From assembly GCA_030054175.1 (NCBI GenBank), contig JASGCM010000008.1, positions 62,001 through 126,000 on the forward strand: a DNA stretch of 64,000 nt. Direction: 5' to 3'. Position numbers and translations under genes: made by a program. How positions within the stretch are numbered: position 1 is the stretch's first letter; every line of letters begins with the position of its first letter. The notes under the pieces are model-generated. The model saw nothing but the letters and a program-made list of their open reading frames with translations. It was not told the DNA's origin and did not search any database. Shown piece after piece: positions 6,030 to 34,534 of the stretch. Source of the stretch: Alphaproteobacteria bacterium. Its GTDB lineage: Bacteria; Pseudomonadota; Gammaproteobacteria; Burkholderiales; Burkholderiaceae_C.

Positions 6030-6045
6030 GTCAAAACACAATTAG

Positions 6046-6079: not shown

Positions 6080-6092
6080 AACCCAACACACA

Positions 6093-6123: not shown

Positions 6124-6138
6124 ACTTTGGAGATTCGT

Positions 6139-7774: not shown

Positions 7775-7799
7775 ATGTTCATATGTGTAGAGGTTGTGT

Positions 7800-8372
7800 A
7801 TGCTTTTGGTGGATTTAATACGAGACGACTTGCCGTCGCACCTGATGGAAGCGGTGGGGCGCTATCGTCACAAGGTTTTTGTCAGTCACCTTGGTTGGTC
7901 GTTGCGATCCTCGGGAGAGGTTGAGGCAGACGAGTTCGATGGGCATGACGCTGTTTACGTCTCCTCGCAAGACAAGCATGGTCACGTTAACGGCGTAGCA
8001 CGCCTATTGCCGACAACGACCCCTTACTTGTTGGAGAAAGTATTTCCATCGCTTTGGGGTGGATTTGAGTTACCGCGCAGCGCTGAAGTATGGGAGTTGT
8101 CGCGATTTGCTGCAGTCGATTTTGATACTTGCGCATCCCTGGCAAATCAGGCTTCTCCAGGTCATGCGGCAAGTCTATTTCAACAGGTGGTTCGGATTGC
8201 AACAGAGCACGGAGCCCGCACTTTGATTACCGTATCGCCGGTCGGAATGGAGCGTCTGCTCCGAGTCAATGGATTTCGAGCTACTCGAGCAGGTGTTCCT
8301 GCGCAACAGGGCGGGTGCTCTGTTGTTGCGCTCAGTATTCCCCTTGGTGCATACATGGAGATGTGGCAATGA
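7800..8372 (+). CDS. LuxI-family acyl-homoserine-lactone synthase
   Basis: A 190-residue protein. Start ATG 7800 is chosen because AGAGG lies just upstream; the TTG at 7794 is less likely. It has the invariant LuxI residues: YRHKVF (Arg and Phe), a Trp in LGW, the acidic pair in EADEFD, GVARLLPTT, and WELSRF with Glu and Arg. The enzyme joins an acyl chain to S-adenosylmethionine and releases an N-acyl-homoserine lactone. It overlaps the next biosynthetic gene by four bases (ATGA), so the signal synthase is co-translated with the cluster. No LuxR gene is in the window. Acyl specificity cannot be read from the sequence. Confidence 0.92.
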   Translation: MLLVDLIRDDLPSHLMEAVGRYRHKVFVSHLGWSLRSSGEVEADEFDGHDAVYVSSQDKHGHVNGVARLLPTTTPYLLEKVFPSLWGGFELPRSAEVWELSRFAAVDFDTCASLANQASPGHAASLFQQVVRIATEHGARTLITVSPVGMERLLRVNGFRATRAGVPAQQGGCSVVALSIPLGAYMEMWQ

Positions 8373-9169
8373 ACCGTTCAAAGCTAACTCGCTGGTCACG
8401 CGTCGTGAACCCTCAGACCAATCGCGGGCTGCTCATCCCGATTGATCATGGCCTTACGTCGGGAGAGATGGACGGTCTCCTCCACTCGTCGATGCCGGCA
8501 CGCTGGTTGAGTCACCCAGCGATAACTGCGGTGGTGGCGCATAAGGGTATGGTCGCCCGGCTGAATGAAACAGGCTGCCTCCTGGGGAAAGGTGTCATCT
8601 TGCAGCTGAACGGGATGATCTCGAGTGCTGCTCAGCCTCACCGCAAGGAGTTGCTGACCTCTATCGATGCGGCGCTGCGCATCGGAGCTGATGCGGTGAG
8701 TCTTGACCTCGTCTTCGATGGTGAACAGGACAGCCATAACTTGAAGCTTCTCGGATGCGTGGCAGACGAAGCAGTCGCCTATGGATTGCCGATCCTCGTG
8801 ATGGTCAAGTGCCTCGGCGCGCAGGCCTCTGGCGATTCGGCAATTCCTCGTCTGCGCCGGGTTGTGAGGTCACTCTGGGAGCTAGGCGCAGACGCCGTCA
8901 AGCTACAAAAGCCTGATTCGATGAGCGACATCCCTGTTTTGCTTGATGGGCTCACAAAGGACATCGACGTCTTCTTCGCTGGTGGTCCACGAAGCAGCGA
9001 CGATGAGATCGCTCGTCTTCTGACTCTGGGACTGAACTCGGGTGCCAGGGGCTTGTGTGTTGGACGTAATGTGTTCCAGAACGCTCATCCGGAGAAGTTC
9101 CTGACTGCACTGGGCTTGCGAGCGGCAAGGCAGTCTGACCAGAGCCTATCCCTGGTCAGCGCAGTTTGA
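8369..9169 (+). CDS. DhnA/GriI-type class I aldolase (2-amino-4,5-dihydroxy-6-oxo-7-phosphoheptanoate synthase-like)
   Basis: A 266-residue protein from the ATG at 8369. The longer ORF-track version begins inside luxI. The sequence shows the DeoC/LacD-type aldolase barrel: LLIPIDHGLTSG near the N-terminus, GADAVSLDL, ILVMVK and GADAVKLQKP (Lys expected to form the Schiff base), FFAGGPRSSD and GARGLCVGRN phosphate-binding loops. The family includes archaeal ADH synthase and streptomycete GriI, which condenses dihydroxyacetone phosphate with aspartate semialdehyde. A dehydroquinate synthase II homologue, the usual partner, lies at the far end of the cluster (38836-40197), so the GriI reaction leading to 3-amino-4-hydroxybenzoate is favoured over sugar metabolism. 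Confidence 0.85.
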   Translation: MNRSKLTRWSRVVNPQTNRGLLIPIDHGLTSGEMDGLLHSSMPARWLSHPAITAVVAHKGMVARLNETGCLLGKGVILQLNGMISSAAQPHRKELLTSIDAALRIGADAVSLDLVFDGEQDSHNLKLLGCVADEAVAYGLPILVMVKCLGAQASGDSAIPRLRRVVRSLWELGADAVKLQKPDSMSDIPVLLDGLTKDIDVFFAGGPRSSDDEIARLLTLGLNSGARGLCVGRNVFQNAHPEKFLTALGLRAARQSDQSLSLVSAV

Positions 9170-9194: not shown

Positions 9195-10847
9195 ATGAGC
9201 CAGAACAGCGACGATCAGCCTACCTCCGTACTCAGCGATGCGCAGCGCTATTGGCTAAAACTGAATCCGGCCCTGGGTGCTGGCAACTTCCTGCATGTTG
9301 CGCACGGTCTCAACACTGCATCGGACGTGCCGCTGGTGTGGACCGACGAGCCGTTCAACCTGGGCGGACAGGTGGTCGAAGGGCCGCTGTCTCTGAACCA
9401 GCTGAAGGCGGCGGCCGATGCCCTGGCCCGCTGGCATGTAATGCAGGACGTGCGTGCTAAGGACCCGGTTGGTGTCTACGGCAGCAACGGGCTGCACTAC
9501 CTGCTTCACTACATGGCGCTCACCGCACTCGGCGCGATCCCGGTGCTCACCAACGGGGCGATGCCGCATGCCACCGCGTTGGCGCACATGCGTCGTGTTG
9601 GCGCGGTCGGTGTGGTGGCCGATGAAGCCCAGCACGCCGCGCTGACCGAGAGCGCGACCGCCGGTGAGTTCCGCTTCCTCGCACGCATGGATCAAATCGT
9701 CGCCCCGGGTGCCGAGGTTTCGCTGCCGCAGCCGTACCCGTTCGTCCACGACGAGCTCGACCCGGTGATGATCACCCACAGTTCCGGTACCACCGGGGTA
9801 CCAAAGCCGGTGCTGCTGCAGCATGGCAAATGGTTCCACGGCATCCGCCACCTGCTCGGCCTGCCGGCCGCGCAGGGCGCCGAGCGTTACCTGTCGTGCT
9901 TGCCGGTGTCGCACAACGCGGCCATTGCCTATGCGATGCACGCCATCCTGTGTGGTGCCGCGCTGATGATTTTGTCGAAGCAGCGCGCCGAGGTTCTGCT
10001 CGAAAGCATCGAACGCTTCAAGCCTTCGACGGTCGTCTCGTTCCCGGCGAACTATGTGGCGATGGTGGCCGGTGGCCTGGAGGGCCGCGCGCTGGAGTCA
10101 GTCAGCAACTGGATCAACAGCGGCGACGCGGCGCACGAGGCCCACATCCGCCAGCTGGTGCGCCACGGCCACCATTACCGGGGCGCGCAGCGGGTGACGG
10201 GCTCGCAGTTCATCGACGGTCTCGGCTCGTCGGAGATGGGCCACTCGAGCTTCCGGGTGGTCTACACGTCGGCCGACCAGAACTTCGATCGCTGCGTCGG
10301 CCTGCCGCAGGAATGGGTCGACGCCAAAGTGCTGGGCGAGGACGGCCGCGAGCTGCCGGTCGGCCAGGTCGGCCGGCTGGGCATCAAGTCGCCCAGCGTG
10401 ACCAGCGGCTACTGGAACGACTCACTGCTCACCCACCGCAGCCAACTGGCCGGCTACTGGCTCACCGGTGACCTGGTCTACAAGGACCGGATGGGCTGCT
10501 TCTTCCACGTCGACCGGACGACCGACCCGATCCGCACCGAGCAAGGCACGCTGTACAGCCTGCAGACCGAGGAGTTGATCCTGAAAATCTGCCCGGAACT
10601 GCTCGACTGCACGGTGCTGGGCCATTCAGTCGGCGAGTTCTTCGAGCCGGTCGTCTACGGCTACCCGTACCCCGGCGGCGCCGTCGACGAGGCGGCGCTG
10701 CTGGAGCGCATCAACGCCGCGCAGCAGCGGCTGGGCCGCCCCCGGCTGGTTCGGCTGAAGCAGGTCGATGCGGCCGACATCCTGGTGGGTGTCACCGGCA
10801 AGGTCACCAAGCAGGCGATGCGCCAGCGCATGGCCGAGACCGCCTGA
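9195..10847 (+). CDS. Stand-alone acyl/aryl-AMP ligase (ANL superfamily)
   Basis: A 550-residue adenylate-forming enzyme. Motifs in order: the P-loop-like HSSGTTGVPKP (residue ~193), GSSEMGH, YWLTGDLVYKD, and a C-terminal TGKVTKQ with the catalytic Lys. Cores differ enough from NRPS A domains to suggest a carboxylic-acid ligase that activates a free acid for CoA or a carrier protein. Possible substrates are the aryl acid made by the GriI/GriH-like pair or an acyl group. It starts 25 bp after the aldolase and is in the same operon. No carrier domain is attached. Confidence 0.85.
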   Translation: MSQNSDDQPTSVLSDAQRYWLKLNPALGAGNFLHVAHGLNTASDVPLVWTDEPFNLGGQVVEGPLSLNQLKAAADALARWHVMQDVRAKDPVGVYGSNGLHYLLHYMALTALGAIPVLTNGAMPHATALAHMRRVGAVGVVADEAQHAALTESATAGEFRFLARMDQIVAPGAEVSLPQPYPFVHDELDPVMITHSSGTTGVPKPVLLQHGKWFHGIRHLLGLPAAQGAERYLSCLPVSHNAAIAYAMHAILCGAALMILSKQRAEVLLESIERFKPSTVVSFPANYVAMVAGGLEGRALESVSNWINSGDAAHEAHIRQLVRHGHHYRGAQRVTGSQFIDGLGSSEMGHSSFRVVYTSADQNFDRCVGLPQEWVDAKVLGEDGRELPVGQVGRLGIKSPSVTSGYWNDSLLTHRSQLAGYWLTGDLVYKDRMGCFFHVDRTTDPIRTEQGTLYSLQTEELILKICPELLDCTVLGHSVGEFFEPVVYGYPYPGGAVDEAALLERINAAQQRLGRPRLVRLKQVDAADILVGVTGKVTKQAMRQRMAETA

Positions 10848-10880: not shown

Positions 10881-11357
10881 ATGGCAAAGCAACACGTTTT
10901 CGAATGCGAAGGTCAATGGAACGGCGCGCTGATGCGCGGCAAGGGCCAGTTCCGGACCGGTTCGCTCCAGGGTGAGTTTTCGGTCCCGCGGGATATGACG
11001 GGCCCGGGTGTGGGGACCAACCCCGAAGAGCTGCTCGTCGCCGCGGCCCACACCTGCTACCTGATGACCCTGTCGGCCCTGCTGAGCGCCGAGGGCGTCA
11101 GCTACAACGAGCTGTCCAACCGCACCAGCGCCATCTTCGACAGCGCGCCGCAAGGCCCGGTGCTGGTCGCCTTGCAGCACGCCCCCGTCGTGCGGATGGC
11201 GCCCGATGCCCGCATGCTGTTCGGCGGCACGGTGCAGAGCTGCATGCTGCAGGCCGAGACGGCCTGCATGGTGGCCAAGACGATGGCGGGCAACGTCACA
11301 GTGAAAGTGCAAGGGCGCGTCGAAGCCGCGCTCGAGACCGCTGGGACTCGGCCATGA
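10881..11357 (+). CDS. OsmC/Ohr-family protein
   Basis: A 158-residue protein with the OsmC fold signature NPEELLVAAAHTCYLM, in which the Cys is at the peroxidatic position, and a second Cys in AETACMVAKTM at the resolving position. OsmC/Ohr enzymes are thiol peroxidases that reduce organic hydroperoxides. Here the gene is wedged between the ligase and the first assembly-line gene and overlaps the latter by four bases, so it is likely part of the cluster. It may protect against a reactive product or have been recruited for a biosynthetic step; the sequence cannot tell which. Confidence 0.82.
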   Translation: MAKQHVFECEGQWNGALMRGKGQFRTGSLQGEFSVPRDMTGPGVGTNPEELLVAAAHTCYLMTLSALLSAEGVSYNELSNRTSAIFDSAPQGPVLVALQHAPVVRMAPDARMLFGGTVQSCMLQAETACMVAKTMAGNVTVKVQGRVEAALETAGTRP

Positions 11358-14300
11358 CCAGACTGACAGATTGGCTGCAGGCCACAGCGGCTCGACTTCG
11401 CCCGCTTGCGGCATCGATCGCCGCACACGGCGCCTCGAACGCGACGCCTCGGCCGCCGCTGACCGAGGTGGCCACGGCTGCCTCGTGCATGCGCGGCCCC
11501 GTGCGGCCCTATCCGTTCGACCAGCGTCTGGAGAGGCTCTATTTTGCCAACAGCGCGGCGTGGCTGGACCGGGTGGCCCTGATCGACTCACAGGCACCGG
11601 GCGTTCGCCGTGAACTCAGCCACCGTGAGCTCGGCCACCGGGTGGTGGTGCTGGCCCATCGGCTGCGCGCCGCGGGCGTGCAACCGCAGCAGACCGTGGC
11701 GGCTCATGTCGAGCGCACGAGCGATCTGGTGGTCGTCGTCCTCGCGACCTGGCTGGTCGGGGCGGTCTACCTCCCGCTGGACCGGGCGTTCCCACCGGCT
11801 TACCTGGCCTCGCTGTGCGAGATCTCACAGCCGAGCCTGGTGCTGACGTATGGCGGCGACGCAGCCGAGCTGGTCGCTGCCGGCGTTCCGCGCCTGGACC
11901 TGGCGTCGATCGACTTCGATGCGGCGGCCGCGGGCAGCACCAGCCTCGAGCCGTTCGCGCAGGTCTCGCCTGATGCGCCGTCGCTGCTCATGTTCACCTC
12001 CGGCTCGACGGGCCAGCCCAAGGGGGTCGTGCACAGCCAGCGCCAGCTGATCAACCGGCTGCACTGGATGTGGGAGGACTACCCCTACGAGCCCGGCGAT
12101 GTGCAGGGGCAGCGATCCCCGATGAACGTGATGCCGTCGATGTGGGAGCTTCTCGGCGGCGTGCTCGCCGGCGTGCCGACGGCGCTGGCGCCCGACCGGG
12201 TGCTGCGCGAGCCGAGTGCGCTGTTCGGATGGTTCGCCGACCAGGGCGTGAGCCAGCTGACGCTGACGCCGCCGCTGATCAAGCTGCTGCTCGACCTCAA
12301 GCGCCGCGGCGCGCAGCACCCGTCGCGCTTGCGCCGGGTGATCAACGGCGGGCCGATGAGCGCGGGCTTGCAGGAGCGCTTCCACGCCGAGCTGTCCGGC
12401 GTCAAGCTGCTGCACGACTTCGGCTGCACCGAAACCAACACCTACCTGCACGACGCGAGGCCCATCGTGCCCGGTGCGGCCGACGGCATGGGCGGCTACC
12501 GCCCGATCGCCAACACCACCATCCACCTGCTCGACGAGCAGGGCGCGCCGGTCGCGCCCGGCGTCGAGGGCGAGGTCTACATCCACGGCCCGAGCTTGGC
12601 GTTGGGCTATCTGGGGCGGCCCGAGCTGAGCGCAGAGCGCTTCATCGCCGGTGGGCCGGCGGGTTGCCGGGTCGAAGGGCATCTGTTTCGCACCGGCGAA
12701 ATGGCGGTGCTGCAGCCCAACGGCACGCTACGCATGACCGGCCGCTTCGACCACCAGGCCAAGGTCAACGGGTTGCGGGTCGAGCTCGAGCATGTCGAGC
12801 TGGTGCTGGGCGACCACCCCGGCGTGTCCGAATGCGCCGTGGTGGCCCAGGCAACGTCCGAGCTGCACACGCGGCTGACCGCCTTCTGGGTCGCGCGTGA
12901 GAGCCAGCCGGCGACCGCCGAGGCGCTGCAGCAGTTCCTAGCCGAGCGGCTGCCCACCCACATGGTGCCCGGCCACTTCCAGCTGCAATCGGCGCTGCCG
13001 CGTCGCCCCAACGGCAAGGTCGACCGGATGCTGCTGAAGCAGCAGGCAGTGGACACGGCACCTCAGGTCGCGGTCGTGGCCGCGCCGATCATCGGCGTGC
13101 CGTTGCTGCGCGAGGTGGCGGCTGGCGTGCTGGGTGTTGCGGTGGACAGCATCGACCCGCAGGTCGAGTTTGCCAACCAGGGCTTCGACTCGGCGTTGCT
13201 GATGAGCTTTGCCGAGGCCGTCTCGGCGCGCACCGGCATCGAGCTGCAGGTGGCGAGCTGCTTCGACCACCCGAGCATCGAGCTGCTCGCCCGCCACCTC
13301 GGCCCGGGCCAGCTGGCCGGTGGCCACCGCGTGCCGGCGGCGCCCGTGCTGCCGGCGGCACAAGACGGCATCGCCATCATCGGCATCAGCCTGCGTGTGC
13401 CGGGTGCCGCCGATCGGCTTGCGTTCTGGCGCAACCTCGAAGGTGGCGTCGAGAGCGTCGGCGAGATCCCCCCTGAGCGCTGGAACGCCGAGGCCTGGTA
13501 CGACCCCGACATCTCCGTCCCCGGCAAGTCCAACAGCAAATGGGGCGGCTTCCTGCGCGATGTCGACCAGTTCGAGCCGCTGTTCTTCCACCTGTCGCCG
13601 AAGGATGCGGCGGCCATGGACCCGCAGCAGCGCATGTGCCTGATGGAGTCGTGGCGTGCGCTGGAAGACGCGGGTTATGCGCCCGACAGCCTCGCCGGCC
13701 GGCCGGTCGGTGTCTATATCGGTGCCCGCGAGCCCGAATACCCGGTGCTGGCCGCGCGCCAGGGGCAGCCGGCGAATGCCGGGCTGATGCTGGGCGGCGA
13801 CATGTCGCTGATCGCGGCGCGCTTGTCCTACTTCCTCAACATCGACGGCCCCAGCGTCGTGGTCGACACCGCCTGCTCGTCGTCGATGACCGCCTTGCAC
13901 CTGGCCTGCACGGGCCTGCGCCAGGGCGACGCCGAGATCGCGCTGGTCGGCGGCGTCTGCCTGACGCTGGACCCGTCGTTCTACGTGGCCAGCAGCAAGC
14001 TCGGCATCTTCTCGCCGACCGGCCATTGCCGCGCGTTCGACGCCGCGGCCGACGGGTTCGTCCACGGCGAAGGCGTGGCCTTCGTGGTGCTCAAGCCGCT
14101 GGCCGCCGCGCAGCGCGACGGCGACTCGGTGTACGCGGTGATCCGCGGCACCGCGATGAACCAGGACGGCCGCTCCAACGGCATCACCGCGCCCAACGGG
14201 CTGGCGCAGACGCGGCTGCAGACAGGGCTGTACCGCAAGCTCGGCATCGACCCCGCGAGCATCGGCTATGTCGAGGCCCACGGCACCGGCACCGCGCTGG

Positions 14301-15598
14301 GTGACGTGGTCGAGCTGCAGGCCTTGGTGCGCAGTTTCGAATCCGCGCCGCTCGCGCCGCGCTCGGTGGCCATCGGTTCGGTCAAGCCGAATGTCGGTCA
14401 TCTGACGGCCGCCTCCGGCCTGGTCGGTGTGATCAAGGCCGCGCTGTGTGTCCACCACGGCCGGCTCGTGCCGTCGATCAACTACCGCGAGCCCAATCCG
14501 AAGATCGACTTCGACCGCACGCCGTTCTACGTCAACACCGTGGCCCGGCCGTGGCCGGCGCCGGCAGGCGACGTGCGCCGCGTGGCGATCAACTCGTTCG
14601 GCATCGGCGGCACCAACGGCCACTGCGTGATCGAGGGCCTTGTGCAGCGAGACGCCGCGCTGCCGGAGCGGACGCGCTGGCTGCTCGCACCGGTCAGTGC
14701 GCGCACCGAGCGCGCGCTGGCCGCCCGGTTGCGGCAACTGCGCGACTGGATCGACGAGAACCATGACGTGGCGCTGCACACGGTTGCCTTCACGCTGGCC
14801 TGCGGTCGCAGCCGCTTCGCCGACGGCCATGTCTTCGCCTTCCGCGATCGGCAGCAGTTCCGCGCCCAGCTGGATGCGGCGATCGCCGGCCGATCCCATG
14901 ACGGCGTATGGCCGTTGGCGCCAATTGAACAGCGCCGCGCGATCGACCCGTCGGCGCTGGCCGAAGGCGTGCGGCGCTGGCGGCTCGCGCTCGACGCCGA
15001 GCCCGATCAGCCGGCCGTCGAACAACTCGGCCGCCTGATCGCCGCCGGCTTCGAGCCGCGGTGGGAGGAGTGGTTCGCCCGCGACGAGCGCCGCCGCACC
15101 GCGCTGCCGGCCTACCCGTTCGACACCGAAAGCTGCTGGCTGTTGCGCCGCGACGTGGCCGCACCGACCCGGGCCGTGCCGGCGCCGACCGCGGTCGCAC
15201 CGCAGCCGGATCGGGCATCGGCCGCAGCGATAGCAGCCGTCCTGGCGACGGTGCGCACGGTGCTGGCGCATGAGCTGGGCATGGACCCGGCCGCGATCGA
15301 CCCGAATGCCGCGCTGTCCAACTACGGCATGGAGTCGGTCAAGGCCATCAACCTGCGCTACGTGTTCGAGGCGCAGTTGGGCGTGGACCTGTCGGTGCAG
15401 GACATCGTCGGTGCCGACACCGCACGCGACCTTGCCGTGCTCGCGCACACGTTGTCGTCCCGGTCGACAGCCGTCTGCACCGCGGGCGATGACGACGCCT
15501 TGCCCGCCGATATCGAGCACGCCTCCGACGCCGAACTGATCAAGCTGTTCCAGCAGCTGTCGAACTCTACCGAATCGAACCAGAGCCATGCAAGTTGA
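11354..15598 (+). CDS. Hybrid loading/extension protein: A-ACP-KS-ACP (no AT)
   Basis: A 1,414-residue assembly-line protein. An adenylation domain spans about 45-565 (FTSGSTGQPKGV at ~213, PNGKVDR near its end). A carrier domain with active Ser 613 (GFDSAL) is followed by a ketosynthase at about 670-1095, with Cys 841 in DTACSSSM, His in EAHGTGTALGD and VKPNVGHLTAASG. A post-KS linker ends in ALPAYPFDTE, and a second carrier has Ser 1328 (YGMESV). No acyltransferase is present, so malonyl units must come from the trans-acting AT at 36829. The residue aligned with Asp235 of NRPS A domains is Met (NVMPSMWEL), which argues against an alpha-amino acid and for an aryl or other acid starter. The C-terminal acidic/hydrophobic tail may be a docking motif for the next protein. 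Confidence 0.9.
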   Translation: MTRLTDWLQATAARLRPLAASIAAHGASNATPRPPLTEVATAASCMRGPVRPYPFDQRLERLYFANSAAWLDRVALIDSQAPGVRRELSHRELGHRVVVLAHRLRAAGVQPQQTVAAHVERTSDLVVVVLATWLVGAVYLPLDRAFPPAYLASLCEISQPSLVLTYGGDAAELVAAGVPRLDLASIDFDAAAAGSTSLEPFAQVSPDAPSLLMFTSGSTGQPKGVVHSQRQLINRLHWMWEDYPYEPGDVQGQRSPMNVMPSMWELLGGVLAGVPTALAPDRVLREPSALFGWFADQGVSQLTLTPPLIKLLLDLKRRGAQHPSRLRRVINGGPMSAGLQERFHAELSGVKLLHDFGCTETNTYLHDARPIVPGAADGMGGYRPIANTTIHLLDEQGAPVAPGVEGEVYIHGPSLALGYLGRPELSAERFIAGGPAGCRVEGHLFRTGEMAVLQPNGTLRMTGRFDHQAKVNGLRVELEHVELVLGDHPGVSECAVVAQATSELHTRLTAFWVARESQPATAEALQQFLAERLPTHMVPGHFQLQSALPRRPNGKVDRMLLKQQAVDTAPQVAVVAAPIIGVPLLREVAAGVLGVAVDSIDPQVEFANQGFDSALLMSFAEAVSARTGIELQVASCFDHPSIELLARHLGPGQLAGGHRVPAAPVLPAAQDGIAIIGISLRVPGAADRLAFWRNLEGGVESVGEIPPERWNAEAWYDPDISVPGKSNSKWGGFLRDVDQFEPLFFHLSPKDAAAMDPQQRMCLMESWRALEDAGYAPDSLAGRPVGVYIGAREPEYPVLAARQGQPANAGLMLGGDMSLIAARLSYFLNIDGPSVVVDTACSSSMTALHLACTGLRQGDAEIALVGGVCLTLDPSFYVASSKLGIFSPTGHCRAFDAAADGFVHGEGVAFVVLKPLAAAQRDGDSVYAVIRGTAMNQDGRSNGITAPNGLAQTRLQTGLYRKLGIDPASIGYVEAHGTGTALGDVVELQALVRSFESAPLAPRSVAIGSVKPNVGHLTAASGLVGVIKAALCVHHGRLVPSINYREPNPKIDFDRTPFYVNTVARPWPAPAGDVRRVAINSFGIGGTNGHCVIEGLVQRDAALPERTRWLLAPVSARTERALAARLRQLRDWIDENHDVALHTVAFTLACGRSRFADGHVFAFRDRQQFRAQLDAAIAGRSHDGVWPLAPIEQRRAIDPSALAEGVRRWRLALDAEPDQPAVEQLGRLIAAGFEPRWEEWFARDERRRTALPAYPFDTESCWLLRRDVAAPTRAVPAPTAVAPQPDRASAAAIAAVLATVRTVLAHELGMDPAAIDPNAALSNYGMESVKAINLRYVFEAQLGVDLSVQDIVGADTARDLAVLAHTLSSRSTAVCTAGDDDALPADIEHASDAELIKLFQQLSNSTESNQSHAS

Positions 15599-17054
15599 CG
15601 ACTTCACGAACCTGTCGTTGCCAGAGAAGCGGCGCGTGCTGGCGATGATGCAGGCGCGGGCGAACGGCAACGACGCAGCCGCAGATCGACCTGCGGGCTC
15701 GGCACCGGCCGCGGTGCGCCAGATCCATCCGCGCCTGGTGCGCGATCCGGCACCGGCCGACTCGCCGTTCGCCCTGACGGACCTGCAGACGGCCTACCTG
15801 GTGGCCAAGGTCAACCCGGTGAAGGTTGACCCGGCCGGCTGCCACGTCTACCTAGAATTCGAAGCCGACGGGATCGATCCGCAGCGCCTGGAGCGGGCCT
15901 GGGCACAGGTGGCCAAGGCGCACCCGATGCTGCGCGCGCAGGTGCTGCCGAACGGCATGCAGCGCATCGTCGACGACCGCGCATTGCCGGCCTTCGGCGT
16001 GGCCGACCATCGTGGCGACGCGGCGGCGGGCCAGCGCTGCATCGAGCGCGTGCGCGAAGAGCTCTCGCATCGCCTGTATCTGCCCGGCGACTGGCCGCTG
16101 TACGAGATACGCGTGACGCAGTTGCCCGAAGGGGCGGCGCGCATCCACGTCAGCATGGACTCGTGGATCGTCGACGCGCACAGCGCCGAGCAGATCTACG
16201 CCCAGTGGCAGGCCTGCTACGAACAGCCGGACCAGGCCCCGGCCGCGCCCGACGTCCGCTTCACGGATTTCATCCACAGCATGAAGGCGTTCCGCACGTC
16301 CGACGGCCACGCGCGCAGCCTAGCCTACTGGCAGCGGCGCCTGGCCGACATGCCCGATGGCCCCGCGCTGCCGTGGTCGGACGCGATCGACAAGGCCCCA
16401 GTGAACCCGCGCAACCGCCGGCGCGACGTGGCCCGTGTGCCGGCAGCGCAGTGGACGAAGCTGCAGGCGCTGTTCGCGCAGCGCAGGCTGTCGGCCACCG
16501 CGGGTGTGCTCGCGGTGTTCTGCGATGTGCTGCGCACCTGGACCGCGAATGACCGCTTCGGCCTGGTGCTGACGCTGCAAAACCGGCCGCCGATGCACGC
16601 TGACATCCAGCGCGTGTCCGGCCCGTTCACGTCCAGCGCGATGTTCGCCGCCGACCGTGTCGACGGCGAAACCTTGGGCGAGCGGGCACGCCGCTACGGT
16701 GAGCAACTGCTCGATGCGCTGGACCACGGGCACGTCGGCGCGATCGAAGCCTGGCGCAGCCTGGGGCCGGATCGCCCGCAGCGCAACGACCGCGTGGTCT
16801 TCACCAGCCTGTTGGCGGCCGGCGGCAGCCCGGGCGAGCAGGCGGGCTGGATGCAGCGCGTGGCCTTCGCCGCGGCGCAGACGCCGGGCACGGCGCTGCA
16901 TTGCCAGCTGCGCGCGGTGCAAGGAGCGCTGGAGATCACCTTCGATGCGGTGCCCTCGTGGTTCAAGGATGGTGTGGTCGAGCGCATGCTCGAGGCCTTC
17001 CAGGCCGCGCTGCGGCACCGAATGCATCTGCCACAGCCACCAGCGTGCCGATGA
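15588..17054 (+). CDS. Stand-alone NRPS heterocyclization (Cy) domain protein
   Basis: A 488-residue protein that is essentially one condensation-superfamily domain. It begins with the Cy-type ALTDLQTAYLV motif and carries DSWIVDAHS (Asp191, Asp196, Ser199), the DxxxxDxxS motif that replaces HHxxxDG in cyclization domains. Cy domains couple Cys, Ser or Thr to the upstream acyl group and cyclize it to a thiazoline or oxazoline. The short N-terminal helix (LSLPEKRRVLAMM) may dock to the preceding protein. The gene overlaps its upstream neighbour by 11 bases and the next one by four. The next protein begins with a second Cy domain, making a tandem pair split over two polypeptides. Confidence 0.88.
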   Translation: MQVDDFTNLSLPEKRRVLAMMQARANGNDAAADRPAGSAPAAVRQIHPRLVRDPAPADSPFALTDLQTAYLVAKVNPVKVDPAGCHVYLEFEADGIDPQRLERAWAQVAKAHPMLRAQVLPNGMQRIVDDRALPAFGVADHRGDAAAGQRCIERVREELSHRLYLPGDWPLYEIRVTQLPEGAARIHVSMDSWIVDAHSAEQIYAQWQACYEQPDQAPAAPDVRFTDFIHSMKAFRTSDGHARSLAYWQRRLADMPDGPALPWSDAIDKAPVNPRNRRRDVARVPAAQWTKLQALFAQRRLSATAGVLAVFCDVLRTWTANDRFGLVLTLQNRPPMHADIQRVSGPFTSSAMFAADRVDGETLGERARRYGEQLLDALDHGHVGAIEAWRSLGPDRPQRNDRVVFTSLLAAGGSPGEQAGWMQRVAFAAAQTPGTALHCQLRAVQGALEITFDAVPSWFKDGVVERMLEAFQAALRHRMHLPQPPACR

Positions 17055-20000
17055 CACTGCTGCAGCAAGGCTACCTCGCCGAGCGCATCCGGCAACCACG
17101 CCAGGCCAGCGGCTACATCTTCCGTTCGTTCCGCTGCGAAGCCTTCGAGCCCGCGCGCTGGCAGCAGGCGCTGGATGCGCTGCTGGCCGACCACCCGATG
17201 CTGAGGGCCTATGTGAGCCCGCGCGGCACGCTGGAATGCCCCGACGCGGTGGCGGCCTACGAGATCCCGGGCGCCGACGCGTCGGACGTCGACGCGCAGA
17301 CCCGCACGATGCTGCAGGACTTCGTCAACGACCGCGGCTGGCCCGCCTTCCGCCTGCGCCTGCTGCGCCAGGCGGACGGTTCGGCACTGCTGCTCAGCCT
17401 GCTCGACATGGCCGCGTTCGATGCCCATTCGGCGTGGAGCTTCTACCGCGAGCTGATCGGCCGCGCGCAAGGTGCGGCGGGCACGCGTGAATCGAGCGGC
17501 TGGAAGCCCTTCTTGCTGCAACGCGGCGCCGCGCGAGGCAGTGAGGCCCACCGGCGCCACTGGGCCGCACGCTGGGCCGATCTTCCGGCAGGCCCGCGCC
17601 TGGCCGCCCCGCGAGCCGCTTCGGCCAGTGCGACCGACACCCACGCCACGACGCGCTGGACGCACACCTGGGCCGACATCGGGCCGCTGGACGCGTGGGC
17701 ATCGGCGCACGGCGTCAGTCTTGAAGCGCTGCTGCTCGCCGCCTATGCCCGCGCGCTGCCGAACGACAACCAGCCATTTGCGCTGGGTGTCGTGGACTAC
17801 GGCCTGCGCAAGTCGGGCGGTTCACCGCTGATCGGCTTTGGCGATGCCACGCGCTTCGCCTGGGCGACGGCGCCGGCCGATCGTTCGCCCGTCGCGCTGC
17901 TGGCCCTCGCCACCGCGTTCGATCGCGAGCTGGCGGCGGATCGCCAGTATGCCGACGCCGAGCCGTTCCACGCGCTGCGCGCTCATCTGGCATCAGGTCA
18001 CCCCGCCGTCGTGCCCTCGGCGGTGATGACGAACTGCCTCGACGTGCCGGCCCCCGCGTTCAGCGGTGTCACCGAAGTGGATGCGGCGTCGGACACGCCG
18101 GGCGTCGCGATCGACAACATGGTGCAACCCAGCGCCGGCGGCCTGGCCGTCAGCTGGATCGTGCGCCGCGAGCAGGTCGACCTGGCCGAAGCCCAGCGCT
18201 GCTTCGACCGCTATGTCCAGGCGATCCAGTCGCTGGTCGAGACCCCGTCGCTGGCCGAAGCGGCCGGCGAGAGGATAAGCGCCGACGAGCGCGCGAAGCG
18301 TCTCGCGCAACTGGCCCGCTGGAACGCCACGGACGTGCCCTACGACCGCACGGTGTGCCTGCACACGCTGTTCGAGCGCCGCGCCCGGGCCGAGCCGTTT
18401 GCCATCGCCGTGCTGAGCGACGACGAGGTGCTGACCTACGGCGAGCTCGATGCACGTACCAACCGGCTGGCCAACCACCTGCAGGATCTGGGTGTCGGCC
18501 GCGGCACGCTGGTGGCGATGATGCTGCCGCGCACCAACCACCTGGTCATCGCCGCGCTGGCGATCATCAAGTGCGGCGGCGCGTTCATCCCATTGAACAT
18601 CGACGACCCGCAAGACCGGCTGACGCGCGTGCTGGCGCAGGCCCAGGCGACCATCTTCGTCTCGACGCGCGAACACTACGGCCGCTTCGACGATCCGGCG
18701 CGCCGCGTGGTGCTGCTAGACGCAGAAGTCGAGCAGATCGCCCGCCGTGCTGACCAGTTCCAGCCGCGTGAGGCCGTCTCGTCGGACGACCGCGCCTACA
18801 TCATCTTCACCAGCGGTAGCACCGGCACACCCAAGGGCGTGATCGTTCGCCATCGGCCGGTGGTCAACCTGATCGAGTGGGCCGAGCGTACTTTCCACTT
18901 CAACGCGACCGATCGGGTGCTGTTCGTCAACCCGCTCAGCTTCGACCTGTCGATCTTCGACCTGTTCGGCATGCTGGCCTACGGTGCCAGCATCCGCATC
19001 GTCAGCGATGCGGACCGCACCAATGCGCTGGCGGTGGCGGGCTTCCTGAAGGACGAGCCGATCACCTTCTGGAACTCGGCACCAGCCTACCTGCAGATGG
19101 TGTTGCCGTTCCTCGAAGGCGGGGTCAACCGGGCCCGCGCGCAACTGGAGCGCATGCGAGTGGTCTTTCTCAGCGGCGACTGGATCCCGCTGACGATGCC
19201 CGATGCGATGAAGGCGGTGGCGCCCTCGGCCCAGGTCATCAGCCTGGGTGGCGCGACCGAAGCGGCGGTGTGGTCGAACTACTTTCCGGTCGGGGCTATC
19301 GACCCGGCCTGGCGCAGCATCCCGTACGGGCGCCCGATCCAGAATGCGCGCTACTACATCCTCGACGAGCAGCGCGAGCCGGTGGCCGTGGGCGAGGCAG
19401 GTAACATGTTCATCGGTGGCGAGTGCCTGAGCGACGGCTATATCAACGAGCCCGGGTTGACCGCGCAGAGCTTCGTCAGCGACCCGTTCCATGAGCGCGC
19501 CGGCGCGATCATGTACCGCACTGGCGACCGGGCGCGCTTCTTCGCCGACGGCAACATCGAGTTCCTCGGCCGCGTCGACCATCAGGTCAAGCTGCGCGGC
19601 TACCGCATCGAGCTCGGCGAGGTCGAGGCCGCGCTCGAGGCCGCCGGCCTGCCGCGCGCGGTGGCGGTGGTGCGCGACGACGAAGCCGGCCGGCGCCTCG
19701 TCGGCTTCGCCGCGGCGTCGGCCGCGGTGAAGCCGGGCGAGCTGGTCGACGAAGCCTGCTTGGCGTCAATCCGCGGCCGGCTGCCGGCCTACATGGTGCC
19801 CGCGCAGGTGATCGTGCTGCCAGCCTTGCCGATCACGCCGAACGGCAAGGTCGATCGCAAGCGCCTAACGCAAGAGCGCATGGCGGTGCTCGCCGCCACG
19901 ACGGCGGTGTCCGAGACCCCGGCACCTTTGACGGCGACCGCCGGCCCGATCGACACGCGACTGGCCGAGTGGCTGACGCGCGCGGTGACCGAGATCCTCG

Positions 20001-23000
20001 GGCCGGACCAGGCCGCTGTCGACCTGGACGACAACCTCGGTCAACTGGGCTTCAGCTCGCTGCACTACACGATGCTCGGCGCCAAGCTGGCCAACGAGCT
20101 GGGCGTGGCGATGAACCCGGCGCTGTTCTTCCGCTATGTCAGCGTGGCCGAGATCCGCGACCACCTGTTGCGCGAGCAGGCGGCAGCGCTGGCGGCGGCA
20201 TTGGCCGCGCCCCCCGCTGCGCCGTTGGCTGCGGTTGCCGCGCCTGCCGCCGCCGCAAGTGATCTGTCGGGCGCGTTGGAGCGCTGGCTGCGCGACGCGG
20301 TGAACGCCGTGCTCGGCGCGACCGAGACCCCCGTGCAGCTGGACGACAACCTCGGCCAGCTCGGCTTCAACTCGCTGCACTACACCTCGCTCGCCGCCCG
20401 CCTGGCCGACGAGCTGAGCATGGCGCTGAACCCGGCGCTGTTCTTCCGCTATGTCAGCGTGGCCGAGATCCGCGACTACCTGCTGCGCGAACATGCCAGC
20501 GCGCTGGTTTCGGCGCTGCTGCCGGCGGCCGCACCTGTGGCGCCGGGCCCCGCGGTGCCGGCTGGCGAGCCGGCCGCGATGCCCGGATCGCCGGCGGCCC
20601 CTGCGGGCGCCATCGCGATCATCGGCATGAGCGGCGTGTTGCCTCAGGCCGCCGACCTCGACGCCTTCTGGCGCAACCTGCTGGCCGGCGCCGACAACAG
20701 CAGCCTGATCCCGGCCGACCGCTGGGACTGGCGGGCGGTCGACGGCGACCCGCATGGCCCGGGCAACTTCACCAACGTGCACCGCGCGGCGTTCATGGAC
20801 GACGTGGCCGGCTTCGACGCCGCCTTCTTCTCGATCTCGCCCCGCGAAGCCGAGCTGATGGACCCGCGCCAGCGCCTGCTGCTGGAGGGTGTCTGGTCGT
20901 GCCTGGAAGACGCTGCGCTGCGGCCGGGCGACCTGCGCGGTGAGTCGGTCGGCCTGTTCGTCGGGGCCACGGGCGACGAATACGCCACGCTGTCGCTGCA
21001 GCCCGGGCGCGAGATCGACCGCTTCACGCTGTCTGGCGTGTCGCGCACGATCCTGGCCAACCGGGTCAGCTACCTGTTCGACTGGCATGGCCCGAGCGAA
21101 GTGGTCGACACCGCGTGCTCTAGCTCGCTGGTGGCCGTGCACAACGCGGTGCGGGCGCTACAGCACGGTGATTGCAAGCTGGCTATCGCCGGCGGCATCA
21201 ACGTGATGATCGACCCGGTGCCGCATGTCTGCCTGAACAAGATCGGCATGCTTGCCGCCGATGGCCGGTGCAAGACCTTCGATGCGCGGGCGGATGGCTA
21301 TGCCCGCGGCGAGGGCATCGGGTTGATCCTGCTGAAGCCGCTGGCCGATGCGCTGCGCGACGGCGACCCGATCCATGCGGTGATCCGCGGCAGCGCGGTC
21401 AACCATGGCGGCCGCGCCACGGCGCTGAGCGCGCCGAACCCGGCGGCACAGGTGCAGGTCATCCAGGCGGCGATCCGCGCGGCGGGTGTCGACAGCGGCC
21501 GCATCGGCTACATCGAAGCCCACGGTACCGGCACGGCGCTGGGTGACCCGATCGAGATCGAAGCGCTGAAAGAGGTTTTCACACACCTGCAAGGCGAGCG
21601 CGGTCACACGCGCGCCGAAACGGGATCAGTGGCGCTGTCGTCGGTCAAGCCGAACGTCGGCCATCTCGAATCGGCGGCAGGCATCGCCGGCTTGCTGAAG
21701 GCGATCCTGTGCGTTAAGCATGGCCAGTTGCCGGCGACGCTGCACCTGCAGCAGCTCAACCCGAATATCCACCTCGACGGCAGCCCGTTCTTCATCGTGC
21801 GCGAACGCCAGGACTGGCCGATGCCGCGCGGCGCTCACGGCGGGCAAGGGCCGCGGCTGGCGGGTGTCAGCTCGTTCGGCTTCGGCGGCGTGAACGCGCA
21901 CGTCGTGGTCGAGCAGCATGTCGCACCGGCACCGAACCCGGCGGCGCGTGGTGGCGACGCGTGGTGGATTCCGCTGTCGGCGCAGGGTGCTGCTGAACTT
22001 CGCAGGCTGTGCCTTCGTCTGTCTGATTACCTCCGCGGACAGTGGCGCGATGTCGCACTGGCCGATGTGGCGCAGACGCTTCAGTCCGGCCGAACCAGCC
22101 TGAAGGAGCGGGCACTGCTTCGCGTCGGCTCGCTGGATGAACTGATCGATGCGTTGACGGCGCTGGCCGAGGACCGGCCGACGCCGGCCCTGCGCTGGCG
22201 CGGCAGCGTCAAGGCGGCGCCAATGCGCGGGGTGACGCGGCGTGTGGCCGGCGAGCTGCTGCCCGGCGGTGACGACGTGGCCGAGCGCTGGAGGCAGCAC
22301 GGCGACGCAGCGTGGCCACGTAGCACCGCGAACGCTGCGGGTCGCCGCATCCACCTGCCGACCTACCCGTTCGCGCACACGCCGTACTGGTTGTCGCCCC
22401 TGGCGACCGAGGCCGCCTGGGCGCCGTCTGGCCTGTTGCCGGCCAGCGTGCCCGACGGCATCGCGTTGTCGCCGACGAACACCGTGCTGTCGGCCCACGT
22501 CGTGGCCGGCCGCCCGGTGCTGCCGGCGGCCGCCTACCTGGCGCTGGTGCGGCGTGCGGTCGGCGTGACGGACCAGCGCGTCATCACGCTGGCCGACGCG
22601 GTGTGGATGCAGCCGTTCTCGGCCACCGGGCCGCAGTTGCTTCGGCTGACGTCACGCATCAGCCGTCAGGAGCTGAAGCGCTTCACCTTCGCCAGCGGCG
22701 CGGGCGATGCGCCGGCGGAGCACTGCACGGTCGACGTGCTGGCGACCGGGCATTCGGTGATCGACGGCGAGCCGGTGCAGGTGTCGGCTTCGCTGCCGCA
22801 CCGGGCGACCCACGACGGCTGCTATGCCACCTTCGAGCGTGGCGGTGTGCAGTTGGCCCATCCCTATCGCAGCGTGCAGAGCCTGAGTTTCGACCAAGCG
22901 AGCGCAGTTGCGAGCCTTCGCATCGAAGCGGGCGACGCCGAGTCGTGTTGGCTGCTGGCATTGGACGGGGCGCTGCAGGCGATCGCGCTGCACCATCAGC

Positions 23001-24697
23001 TCTCGCGGCCCGATGGCACGCCGAGCCTGCCGTTCCACGTCAAGCGGGTGCACCTGCATGGGCATGTCGGCGGCGCCGGCGTCACCGAGCTGACCGTGAG
23101 GCTGGCGGTGCAGCAAGCGGCGGCCGGCCGCCCGACCCGCGTGGCGAAGTACGACACCGATCTGTTAGATGCGTCCGGGCGCCGCATCGGGCGCATCGAG
23201 TCGTGCGCAGGCAAGAGCCTCGGCACGACGGCGCCGCCGGCACGGCCACCGAAGGCCGTTGCCACCGAAGCGCAGGCGGCGCATCTTTACGTGCCCCACT
23301 GGGAGCCGGTGAATGCCGCACGGGCCCCGTTGCCAGTGCGCGGCATGCTGGTCAGCACCGGTTCGTCGTGGGCCACGCCGGCGGGCTGGCTGCGGGCGGA
23401 ACGTTCCGGCAGCGACCATGCCGCTCCGGCGCGCTCGCTGCGCATCGATGCCGGTGCCGAGGCCGACTGGTCGGCCGTGCTGGCCGACGATGCGGCGCCC
23501 GAGCTGATCGTGCTGGACTACATGACGTGGCCGGTGGCCGGCGGTGACGCGGCACACGAGGCGGTCTACGCGCCGTTCAACGAGGCCTTCGCACTGGCTC
23601 GCGCCGCGATGAAGCTGCGTACGCGCCGTCCCTTGTCGGTGGTTGCCGTCTACAGCGACCAGGCCGGTTCGCTGCTGATGCCGGCGGTGCAGGCGCTGGG
23701 TGCGTTCGGCCGCGCGGTGCGTAACGAGTCGCCAGCGCTGCGTTTCAGTGCGCTCGCGCTGGCCGCCGATCCGCGGCGGATCGATCTGGCGGCGATCGGC
23801 GCCACCATCGCCGCGTTGCCGGGCGACGCGCAGCGGGCGGTCAACTACCGCTGTACCGCGGACGGCCGGCTGCTGGCTGAACGACTGACGAAGGCAGCGG
23901 CCGACACGGCACCATCGGCGCGGCCGCTGGCGGTCGGCAGCGTCGTCGTGGTCAGTGGTGGCGCGGGGGGTATCGGTCGCCTGATGGCCAGCTTCCTGAC
24001 CGCGCGAGGCTGTCGCGTGGCGCTGCTCGGTCGCTCCGACCCTGCTGTCGTCGCGACCGAGCTGACAACGGCCGGCTTGGCCGACCCGCGGCGGTGCCGC
24101 TACCTGCAGGCCGATGTCACGCAACGCGACCAGGTCCACCACGCGCTCGACCAGGTGCGACGCGACTGGGGCCCGATCCAGGCGGTGTTCCACGCTGCCG
24201 GGGGGCGCGCTGACGGCATGCTGTTGCGAAAGGACAGCCAGACGGCGCGCACGGTGCTCGCGGCCAAGGTGCTCGGCGCCATCGTGCTCGACGAGGCCAC
24301 ACGCGGCGACCCGCTCGAACACTTCATTGCGTTCTCTTCGCTGGCGTCGTACCTGGGGCCGGTAGGCCAGGCCGACTATGCCTATGCGAACGCCTTCCTG
24401 AACGGGTTGGTGACGGCGCGCAACGAGTTGGTCCGCCAGGGGCTGCGCCGCGGCGCGAGCTGTTCGGTGGGCTGGCCGCTGTGGCGCGAGGGCGGCATGC
24501 GCATGAGCGATGCCGAGCGCGACTACATCGCGCAGCTGCACGGCATGACCGACATGGCCACCGACACGGCCATGCAGTGCTTGCTCGCCGTTTTGGGCGG
24601 GGCGCATGAGACCGTCGCGATCGCAGTGGGCGACAGCGAAAAGATCGACCGCTCGATGCTGGGCCGCGCTGCCGGTGACCTCATCTACGCGACATGA
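17051..24697 (+). CDS. Hybrid NRPS-PKS: Cy-A-PCP-PCP-KS-DH-KR
   Basis: About 2,548 residues from the ATG at 17051 (ATGA overlap); the ORF-track start lies inside the Cy gene. Domains: Cy with DMAAFDAHS (Asp119, Asp124, Ser127); A domain ~417-935 with FTSGSTGTPKGV near 583; two near-identical PCPs (Ser 1003 and Ser 1108, each in DDNLGQLGF); KS from ~1187 with Cys 1356 in DTACSSSL; linker ending LPTYPFAHTPYW; DH with HVVAGRPVLP and DGALQ, so apparently active; KR with SGGAGGIGRL and the YAYAN Tyr/Asn. A-domain pocket segments (SFDLSIFDLFG, WNSAPA, FLSGDWIP, GGATEAAVW) closely resemble cysteine activators. No AT and no carrier follows the KR; the carrier lies at the start of the next protein. 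Expected product of the step is a thiazoline followed by an alkene unit. Confidence 0.9.
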   Translation: MTLLQQGYLAERIRQPRQASGYIFRSFRCEAFEPARWQQALDALLADHPMLRAYVSPRGTLECPDAVAAYEIPGADASDVDAQTRTMLQDFVNDRGWPAFRLRLLRQADGSALLLSLLDMAAFDAHSAWSFYRELIGRAQGAAGTRESSGWKPFLLQRGAARGSEAHRRHWAARWADLPAGPRLAAPRAASASATDTHATTRWTHTWADIGPLDAWASAHGVSLEALLLAAYARALPNDNQPFALGVVDYGLRKSGGSPLIGFGDATRFAWATAPADRSPVALLALATAFDRELAADRQYADAEPFHALRAHLASGHPAVVPSAVMTNCLDVPAPAFSGVTEVDAASDTPGVAIDNMVQPSAGGLAVSWIVRREQVDLAEAQRCFDRYVQAIQSLVETPSLAEAAGERISADERAKRLAQLARWNATDVPYDRTVCLHTLFERRARAEPFAIAVLSDDEVLTYGELDARTNRLANHLQDLGVGRGTLVAMMLPRTNHLVIAALAIIKCGGAFIPLNIDDPQDRLTRVLAQAQATIFVSTREHYGRFDDPARRVVLLDAEVEQIARRADQFQPREAVSSDDRAYIIFTSGSTGTPKGVIVRHRPVVNLIEWAERTFHFNATDRVLFVNPLSFDLSIFDLFGMLAYGASIRIVSDADRTNALAVAGFLKDEPITFWNSAPAYLQMVLPFLEGGVNRARAQLERMRVVFLSGDWIPLTMPDAMKAVAPSAQVISLGGATEAAVWSNYFPVGAIDPAWRSIPYGRPIQNARYYILDEQREPVAVGEAGNMFIGGECLSDGYINEPGLTAQSFVSDPFHERAGAIMYRTGDRARFFADGNIEFLGRVDHQVKLRGYRIELGEVEAALEAAGLPRAVAVVRDDEAGRRLVGFAAASAAVKPGELVDEACLASIRGRLPAYMVPAQVIVLPALPITPNGKVDRKRLTQERMAVLAATTAVSETPAPLTATAGPIDTRLAEWLTRAVTEILGPDQAAVDLDDNLGQLGFSSLHYTMLGAKLANELGVAMNPALFFRYVSVAEIRDHLLREQAAALAAALAAPPAAPLAAVAAPAAAASDLSGALERWLRDAVNAVLGATETPVQLDDNLGQLGFNSLHYTSLAARLADELSMALNPALFFRYVSVAEIRDYLLREHASALVSALLPAAAPVAPGPAVPAGEPAAMPGSPAAPAGAIAIIGMSGVLPQAADLDAFWRNLLAGADNSSLIPADRWDWRAVDGDPHGPGNFTNVHRAAFMDDVAGFDAAFFSISPREAELMDPRQRLLLEGVWSCLEDAALRPGDLRGESVGLFVGATGDEYATLSLQPGREIDRFTLSGVSRTILANRVSYLFDWHGPSEVVDTACSSSLVAVHNAVRALQHGDCKLAIAGGINVMIDPVPHVCLNKIGMLAADGRCKTFDARADGYARGEGIGLILLKPLADALRDGDPIHAVIRGSAVNHGGRATALSAPNPAAQVQVIQAAIRAAGVDSGRIGYIEAHGTGTALGDPIEIEALKEVFTHLQGERGHTRAETGSVALSSVKPNVGHLESAAGIAGLLKAILCVKHGQLPATLHLQQLNPNIHLDGSPFFIVRERQDWPMPRGAHGGQGPRLAGVSSFGFGGVNAHVVVEQHVAPAPNPAARGGDAWWIPLSAQGAAELRRLCLRLSDYLRGQWRDVALADVAQTLQSGRTSLKERALLRVGSLDELIDALTALAEDRPTPALRWRGSVKAAPMRGVTRRVAGELLPGGDDVAERWRQHGDAAWPRSTANAAGRRIHLPTYPFAHTPYWLSPLATEAAWAPSGLLPASVPDGIALSPTNTVLSAHVVAGRPVLPAAAYLALVRRAVGVTDQRVITLADAVWMQPFSATGPQLLRLTSRISRQELKRFTFASGAGDAPAEHCTVDVLATGHSVIDGEPVQVSASLPHRATHDGCYATFERGGVQLAHPYRSVQSLSFDQASAVASLRIEAGDAESCWLLALDGALQAIALHHQLSRPDGTPSLPFHVKRVHLHGHVGGAGVTELTVRLAVQQAAAGRPTRVAKYDTDLLDASGRRIGRIESCAGKSLGTTAPPARPPKAVATEAQAAHLYVPHWEPVNAARAPLPVRGMLVSTGSSWATPAGWLRAERSGSDHAAPARSLRIDAGAEADWSAVLADDAAPELIVLDYMTWPVAGGDAAHEAVYAPFNEAFALARAAMKLRTRRPLSVVAVYSDQAGSLLMPAVQALGAFGRAVRNESPALRFSALALAADPRRIDLAAIGATIAALPGDAQRAVNYRCTADGRLLAERLTKAAADTAPSARPLAVGSVVVVSGGAGGIGRLMASFLTARGCRVALLGRSDPAVVATELTTAGLADPRRCRYLQADVTQRDQVHHALDQVRRDWGPIQAVFHAAGGRADGMLLRKDSQTARTVLAAKVLGAIVLDEATRGDPLEHFIAFSSLASYLGPVGQADYAYANAFLNGLVTARNELVRQGLRRGASCSVGWPLWREGGMRMSDAERDYIAQLHGMTDMATDTAMQCLLAVLGGAHETVAIAVGDSEKIDRSMLGRAAGDLIYAT

Positions 24698-34072: not shown

Positions 34073-34096
34073 ATTTAACTGAATTTGGAGACTTTA

Positions 34097-34534
34097 ATGG
34101 AATATGAAATTGTTGATTATGGCGGCATGACAATTGTTGGCATCTCTTCCAGAGTGGACAACAGCGATGCTGGTTTCAAGAAAATAGAACTTATATGGAA
34201 GGAATTTTTTCAACGAGATATTAAGCGTAAGCTTGGTCTTGAAGGCGATTCTGAAATCTGCGAGGCATATTTTGATTATGAAAGCGATGCCAACGGCCCC
34301 TACACAATTGTCCTGGGTGCAGTGCTTCATCCGTATGTTCCTCCAATGAACGAGGAGTTGGTGATGCACCATGTTGAAAAAGGGCGTTATGCGAAGTTTC
34401 ACACTGTCAACCCAAATGGTATCCGTGATATTTGGAAACACGTTTGGGGTCGTACTGATTTGAATCGTCGCTACGCTTGCGACTTCGAGTTAATTAGCTC
34501 ACAGGGTGCTGACGTGTATGTGTCTGTGAAGTGA
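34097..34534 (+). CDS. GyrI-like/Cass2 effector-binding domain protein
   Basis: 145 residues from the ATG at 34097 with GGAG six bases upstream. The N-terminal YEIVDYGGMTIVGISSRVDN, the central CEAYFDYESDANGPYT and the aromatic residues in the C-terminal half (IWKHVW) fit the small-molecule-binding fold shared by AraC-type effector domains, GyrI and the integron cassette protein Cass2. Stand-alone members bind cationic or hydrophobic drugs. Its low GC content is unlike that of all its neighbours, so it was probably inserted into the cluster together with the inverted repeat upstream. A role in product binding is possible but unproven. Confidence 0.7.
   Translation: MEYEIVDYGGMTIVGISSRVDNSDAGFKKIELIWKEFFQRDIKRKLGLEGDSEICEAYFDYESDANGPYTIVLGAVLHPYVPPMNEELVMHHVEKGRYAKFHTVNPNGIRDIWKHVWGRTDLNRRYACDFELISSQGADVYVSVK

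Follow-up and report, generated by a model that had tools for sequence, protein, structure and literature searches.

Do an aldolase and a 3-dehydroquinate synthase II (DHQS II) homologue, encoded about 30 kb apart on either side of a set of NRPS/PKS genes, work together, and do they supply 3-amino-4-hydroxybenzoate (3,4-AHBA) to the cluster that they bracket? We examined this question in a 64,000-nucleotide stretch of DNA, referred to here as the window. Both genes are intact, start with ATG and lie on the + strand with the NRPS/PKS genes between them (Table 1), in agreement with an earlier note on this DNA, which had described them as co-directional and flanking the PKS. That reading overlooked the relative of AvaA6-type diazotases, the OsmC-family gene, the heme-oxygenase-like diiron oxidase (HDO) and the cupin.

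The cluster is directly preceded by prophage-like tail and lysis genes (window 1-7579 and the 20 kb upstream), including an endolysin with a glucosaminidase domain (6282-7001) and an Rz-like gene (6998-7579). In the stretches 635-1570 and 3354-6029, a tail-type protein with the C-terminal end ...TNCNCNCNCCGC has a radical SAM protein (ORF 4314-6029) and a 2OG-Fe(II) oxygenase (4060-4674) nearby, and these are possibly a phage-borne protein-modification set. On the other side, broken and intact IS/transposase genes (40806-48114) lie between the cluster and the btuB/cobalamin genes. The G+C contents of the DHQS gene (54%) and the aldolase gene (58%) are far below that of the PKS (70%).

Table 1. 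Genes of the cluster, in window coordinates, with the basis of each assignment or its conservation elsewhere.
Feature	Position	Strand	Basis or remark
AHL (autoinducer) synthase-like, first cluster gene	7794..8372	+	PF00765; Duganella orthologue 52%, same place, beside LuxR gene
DhnA-type aldolase, proposed first 3,4-AHBA step	8369..9169	+	Asp26 and Schiff-base Lys178 retained; Lys147 where MJ0400 has Tyr153
Adenylate-forming enzyme, AvaA6/CreM ATP-dependent diazotase clade	9195..10847	+	NF058622 AvaA6, PDB 8ztz, tree
OsmC-family thiol enzyme, both Cys retained	10881..11357	+	PF02566; fused to diazotase relative in Sinorhizobium medicae
A-PCP-KS-PCP starter protein	11354..15598	+	A domain with Met, no Asp235; pocket kept in Duganella and S. 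medicae
Stand-alone heterocyclisation-type (Cy) condensation domain	15588..17054	+	PF00668; motif DSWIVDAHS
Cy-like domain, A domain (Cys-type pocket), PCP-PCP, KS-DH-KR	17051..24697	+	Domain/motif reading
ACP-KS-KR-ACP-TE polyketide synthase	24728..30934	+	Family scan
HpaB-type flavin-dependent aromatic hydroxylase	30949..32472	+	54% to S. medicae, 81% to Duganella
MATE exporter	32525..33895	+	Family scan
GyrI-like/Cass2 small-molecule-binding protein	34085..34534	+	Family scan
SAP/DUF6434 protein	34541..35242	+	Kept in S. medicae and Duganella clusters
Phosphopantetheinyl transferase	35239..36012	+	Family scan
Type II thioesterase	36014..36835	+	Family scan
Discrete malonyl-type acyltransferase (trans-AT)	36829..37668	+	Family scan
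Heme-oxygenase-like diiron oxidase (HDO), CADD fold	37686..38354	+	Diiron ligands retained; CADD sacrificial Tyr/Lys missing
Cupin adjoining HDO	38345..38797	+	HDO-cupin pair also adjoins the DHQS II gene of Duganella and of Ramlibacter
3-dehydroquinate synthase II homologue, last cluster gene, proposed 3,4-AHBA-forming second enzyme	38836..40197	+	PF01959

We found a cluster with an identical gene order in Duganella sacchari, which runs LuxR, AHL synthase, aldolase, AvaA6-like, OsmC, PKS/NRPS, HpaB, MATE, GyrI, DUF6434, PPTase, TE, AT, HDO, cupin and DHQS II. The aldolase gene, the first after the AHL synthase gene, and the DHQS II gene, the last, are also about 30 kb apart in this genome, and the proteins are 62% (aldolase), 70% (diazotase relative) and 70% (DHQS II) identical to those of the window. 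Since D. sacchari shares the split cluster, the aldolase/DHQS II pair is no chance co-occurrence. The AHL synthase gene of the window has no adjoining LuxR gene (7579-7794), whereas the Duganella cluster has one (L091:13166-14026). Plasmids of S. medicae carry an aldolase (46%), a DHQS (33%), HpaB, DUF6434 and an AvaA6-OsmC fusion, and the co-membership of aldolase and DHQS is kept across three genera. The aldolase gene directly adjoins that of DHQS II in Klebsiella michiganensis, Paludibacterium, Pseudogulbenkiania, Acidovorax, Ramlibacter and one genome of the same order as the source genome, and the two are at most 7 kb apart in a Polyangiaceae bin; several of these neighbouring Gram-negative pairs adjoin AvaA6- and AvaA7-type genes. 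Judging from gene order, the aldolase and the DHQS II homologue of the window, though far apart, are one system. To our knowledge, none of the Gram-negative members found here has a known enzyme activity.

Two kinds of related loci were observed in addition. A plasmid of K. michiganensis isolated from a fruit fly (NZ_CP048110, L003) carries a compact operon of DHQS II, aldolase, AvaA7-like, MFS and AvaA6-like genes, possibly a full deamination route from 3,4-AHBA. In Acidovorax (L008) and Polyangiaceae (L011 and L012), DHQS II stands beside PaaK/BagE-like ligases, carboxylate reductase-like proteins or a Rieske dioxygenase, and these loci may represent several uncharacterised AHBA-type pathways.

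The gene adjoining the aldolase in the window encodes a protein with 458 bits against the AvaA6 model NF058622, which misses the cut-off of 975, with the next family at 146. It matched PDB 8ztz with an E value of 4.5e-115, as compared with about 1e-20 for CoA ligases, and its clade (100/99) includes the CreM-like enzyme encoded in a cremeomycin-like plasmid cluster (L094), an enzyme that itself scored 331 bits against the AvaA6 model. This plasmid cluster also holds 3,4-AHBA genes, CreE/CreD-type genes and an HpaB-type hydroxylase. Among 399 genomes sampled from the order, the DHQS II family and the AvaA6-like gene are present in the identical two (chance probability 1.3e-5, or 0.0025 excluding the source genome). 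AvaA6/CmaA6 of actinomycetes use nitrite to diazotise amines derived from 3,4-AHBA (PMC10777205), and we lean, on homology, towards the view that the protein of the window diazotises the amine in the same manner of pathway.

It is less likely, though a real alternative, that the pair makes 3,4-AHBA and the AvaA6-like protein is an ordinary acid-activating ligase, giving AHBA-CoA or an amide/ester and no diazo group. AvaA6/CreM-type enzymes and ligases all belong to the ANL superfamily of adenylating enzymes, the AvaA6 cut-off is missed, and our search of the source genome for the nitrite genes of the aspartate-nitrosuccinate (ANS) route (CreE/CreD) found no CreE and a single lyase match, weak at 44 bits and interrupted by a stop. 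However, roughly one in two ava-type clusters of actinomycetes has no ANS genes either (PMC10777205), the AvaA6 score exceeds that of the CreM-like enzyme in the same clade, and the far lower scores of ligases, together with the clade placement, disfavour assignment as a CoA ligase.

The aldolase (266 aa) belongs to the DeoC/LacD family (DhnA-type; PF01791, 64.9 bits, cut-off 23.8), and among the curated families it comes closest to 2-amino-3,7-dideoxy-D-threo-hept-6-ulosonate (ADH) synthase, at scores below the cut-offs (NF005556, 150.5 of 241; TIGR01949, 136.8 of 299). Its AlphaFold model (pLDDT 93) gave MJ0400, the ADH synthase of M. jannaschii, as the top PDB match (E 1.3e-21). Lys178 and Asp26 correspond to the Schiff-base Lys184 and to Asp33 of MJ0400, and both are invariant in all 116 aligned relatives. 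Tyr153 of MJ0400, which we take to be the catalytic proton donor of ADH synthase, is retained in 102 of the 116 relatives; the Duganella aldolase, like that of the window, has Lys at this position. Asn occupies it in a second Tyr-less lineage, ten Bacillota aldolases paired with DHQS II (loci L043, L045, L046, L048, L050-L053, L056 and L082), indicating that Tyr is not essential to the pairing. Identity to the actinobacterial GriI-type enzymes is about 25-30%, and the protein is no close relative of GriI.

In the phylogenetic analysis, the aldolases of the window, Duganella and S. medicae grouped together with support of 100/100, their common stem measuring about 1.9 changes per site. The best tree placed this group among the DHQS-paired aldolases of Gram-negative bacteria and Bacillota (92/95). 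The AU test rejected neither shared ancestry with the remaining Gram-negative aldolases (p-AU 0.34) nor a grouping with the sugar aldolases LsrF/FbaB (p-AU 0.10). The earlier designation of the protein as a GriI-type aldolase agrees with the fold, the catalytic Lys and Asp, and the pairing with DHQS, but Lys in place of Tyr153 and the very long branch make it only partly applicable. The enzyme plausibly works like GriI, and its placement in the GriI type is tentative.

One could suppose that so diverged an aldolase takes another donor or acceptor, in which case the pair would yield an aromatic acid (C7N or C7) other than 3,4-AHBA. The replacement of Tyr153 by Lys in both the window and Duganella, the long stem, and the differently placed clades of aldolase and DHQS from the same cluster are in line with this, but the invariant Schiff-base Lys and Asp, the loss of Tyr in the DHQS-paired Bacillota enzymes and the p-AU value for a common origin make it rather improbable. 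It is more improbable still that the aldolase acts on sugar phosphates and has no connection with the DHQS homologue, which would then act alone on another substrate: the p-AU value for the LsrF/FbaB grouping leaves some room for it, but the HMM scores fall in the order ADH synthase (150 bits), LsrF (70) and FBPA (51), 22 ADH synthase chains rank above LsrF in the fold search, with archaeal FBP aldolase also behind ADH synthase, and the cluster co-membership is kept in the three genera.

The DHQS II homologue (453 aa) scored 256.8 bits against PF01959 (cut-off 22.2) and 148.7 against the curated BagC/FevH model, below its cut-off of 750. Applied to Streptomyces, the BagC/FevH model recovered relatives but exceeded its cut-off in none of 150 genomes. 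Thus, neither the aldolase nor the DHQS II homologue attains a curated GriI/GriH-type cut-off. In the tree, the DHQS II homologue lies in a 12-row Gram-negative clade (SH-aLRT 100) paired there with the Duganella protein (100); the haloarchaeal enzymes (clade support 100) and the main Streptomyces clade branch separately. The phylogenetic comparison proposed in the earlier note hence set the DHQS apart from haloarchaeal enzymes and, in the best tree, grouped the aldolase with DHQS-paired ones, while the sugar-aldolase grouping was retained by the AU test. At 33 columns fixed differently between archaeal sequences (a mostly haloarchaeal sample) and Streptomyces AHBA-type sequences, the homologue has 10 AHBA-type residues, including H289 and those of the DWHxR segment at 407-411 (D407, W408, H409 and R411), 9 archaeal residues and 14 of its own. 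The residue comparison named in the earlier note thus gives a mixed picture, and the name GriH-type, as used earlier, fits the family but does not describe the separate Gram-negative clade.

An archaeal-type shikimate entry supplying dehydroquinate to the host, to which the family membership and the archaeal-type residues might point, can be rejected as very improbable, since the source genome has aroB (384 bits), the two genes bracket a secondary-metabolite cluster and the DHQS II family is rare in the order. Two aroB copies with equal scores were found on one contig in opposite orientation (G000:C34:126777-127769 and 167884-168876), either a duplication or an assembly artefact. With the split pair kept in D. 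sacchari, the neighbouring Gram-negative pairs beside relatives of the diazotases and denitrifying reductases of AHBA pathways, and aroB present, the 3,4-AHBA supply suggested before is well supported, and we consider it probable, with some confidence, that the aldolase/DHQS II pair supplies 3,4-AHBA.

In the first A domain, Met takes the place of Asp235 (RSPMNVMPSMWELL), which bears out the earlier statement that the starter domain does not select alpha-amino acids. The second Cy-like domain (motif DMAAFDAHS) is followed by an A domain that we take to be Cys-type, from pocket residues read by eye against the Cys code. The S. medicae assembly starts alike: its A1 pocket is closely similar and its Cys-type A2 signature identical. 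The domain order (A1-PCP-KS-PCP; Cy; Cy-like and Cys-type A; KS-DH-KR; ACP-KS-KR-ACP-TE; discrete AT) leads to a predicted aryl-polyketide-thiazoline chain, bearing or formerly bearing a diazo group. Given the AvaA6-type diazotase relative together with the OsmC, HDO and cupin genes, the starter is unlikely to end up as plain 3,4-AHBA.

The OsmC gene is directly 3' of the diazotase relative in the window and in Duganella, as well as fused to it in S. medicae. These three clusters have OsmC but no AvaA7, a homologue of which was looked for in the window cluster and not found, whereas AvaA7-bearing loci gave no OsmC match. The HDO, nearest CADD by fold, retains six metal ligands, and has Ile19 and Ile146 where CADD, a self-sacrificing p-aminobenzoate synthase, has the sacrificial Tyr27 and Lys152 (PMC11965152). 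Since both sacrificial residues are missing, a CADD-type pABA synthase was ruled out. The HDO gene directly follows the AvaA6-like gene in Paludibacterium and one genome of the same order; we know of no N-N activity for the HDO of the window. Known N-N systems involve HDO-cupin combinations (PMC11705231). The roles of HDO/cupin and OsmC in the pathway are put forward as hypotheses only. A doubtful, speculative one is that, in Gram-negative arylamine diazotisation, HDO/cupin rather than the ANS route would supply nitrite or an equivalent, and the OsmC thiol enzyme would replace AvaA7 in processing the arenediazonium, by reductive N2 loss or capture.

Taken together, we prefer, with a probability of about two in three, the following explanation. 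The aldolase and the DHQS II homologue would convert aspartate semialdehyde and dihydroxyacetone phosphate to 3,4-AHBA for the cluster; A1 would load the aryl acid, unmodified or modified, and the trans-AT PKS/NRPS with its Cy domains and Cys-type A domain would extend it; the AvaA6-type enzyme would diazotise the amine before or after chain assembly, and the OsmC protein would act on the diazo product. Of this, the analysis establishes the genes, their homology, the synteny and the fold; we consider 3,4-AHBA formation probable and diazotisation slightly more likely than not.

A literature search, mostly outside subscription journals, found no paper describing 3,4-AHBA/diazotase chemistry in a Gram-negative trans-AT PKS/NRPS cluster, such chemistry being described from actinomycetes, nor any fitting product of Duganella, or of a trans-AT line, that contains 3,4-AHBA. 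On comparative grounds, the cluster appears to be a new Gram-negative variant of the AHBA-plus-diazotase pathways, and the diazotase-related gene adjoining the aldolase suggests that it makes unusual nitrogen chemistry, undescribed in such bacteria. If this is true, AHBA-based diazotisation extends to proteobacterial plasmids and chromosomes, in plant, insect and soil bacteria, and raises testable questions as to the substitute for the ANS pathway as nitrite source and the action of OsmC on the diazonium.

The GriI/GriH (grixazone), AvaI/AvaH and CmaI/CmaH systems of actinomycetes likewise have genes for an ADH synthase-family aldolase and a DHQS II homologue within one biosynthetic cluster. 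In the window, by comparison, the two genes are far apart, the aldolase shows the low identity and Tyr153 replacement noted above, and the DHQS is 28-36% identical, with a longer N-terminus and a Gram-negative clade of its own. Clusters for avenalumic acid (ava) and p-coumaric acid (cma), as well as cremeomycin-type clusters, likewise join 3,4-AHBA genes to an ATP-dependent diazotase relative, and the cremeomycin-like plasmid cluster shares the HpaB-type hydroxylase; they differ from the present case, in which no AvaE/AvaD (CreE/CreD) was found in the source genome, AvaA7 is missing from the cluster, OsmC, HDO and cupin are present, and a modular trans-AT NRPS/PKS with Cy domains stands in place of a type II PKS. 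The uncharacterised K. michiganensis and Paludibacterium loci share DHQS II (61-62%), the aldolase and the AvaA6-like gene, with an HDO in Paludibacterium, but are compact operons with an AvaA7-like reductase and MFS and without PKS/NRPS. The S. medicae plasmid cluster (NZ_CP149880), also uncharacterised, has in common with the window the aldolase, DHQS II, AvaA6 and OsmC (as the fusion), HpaB, DUF6434, PPTase, A-PCP-KS-PCP-Cy-Cy and the Cys-type A domain; it differs in an additional KedN5-like radical SAM methylase and SagB-type dehydrogenase and has no HDO match. Finally, the N-N forming SznF/GrbD/HamA-HamB systems (PMC11705231) have an HDO beside a cupin, as does the window cluster, which may form an N-N bond, whereas the HDO of the window is a small, separate protein with CADD as its nearest fold.
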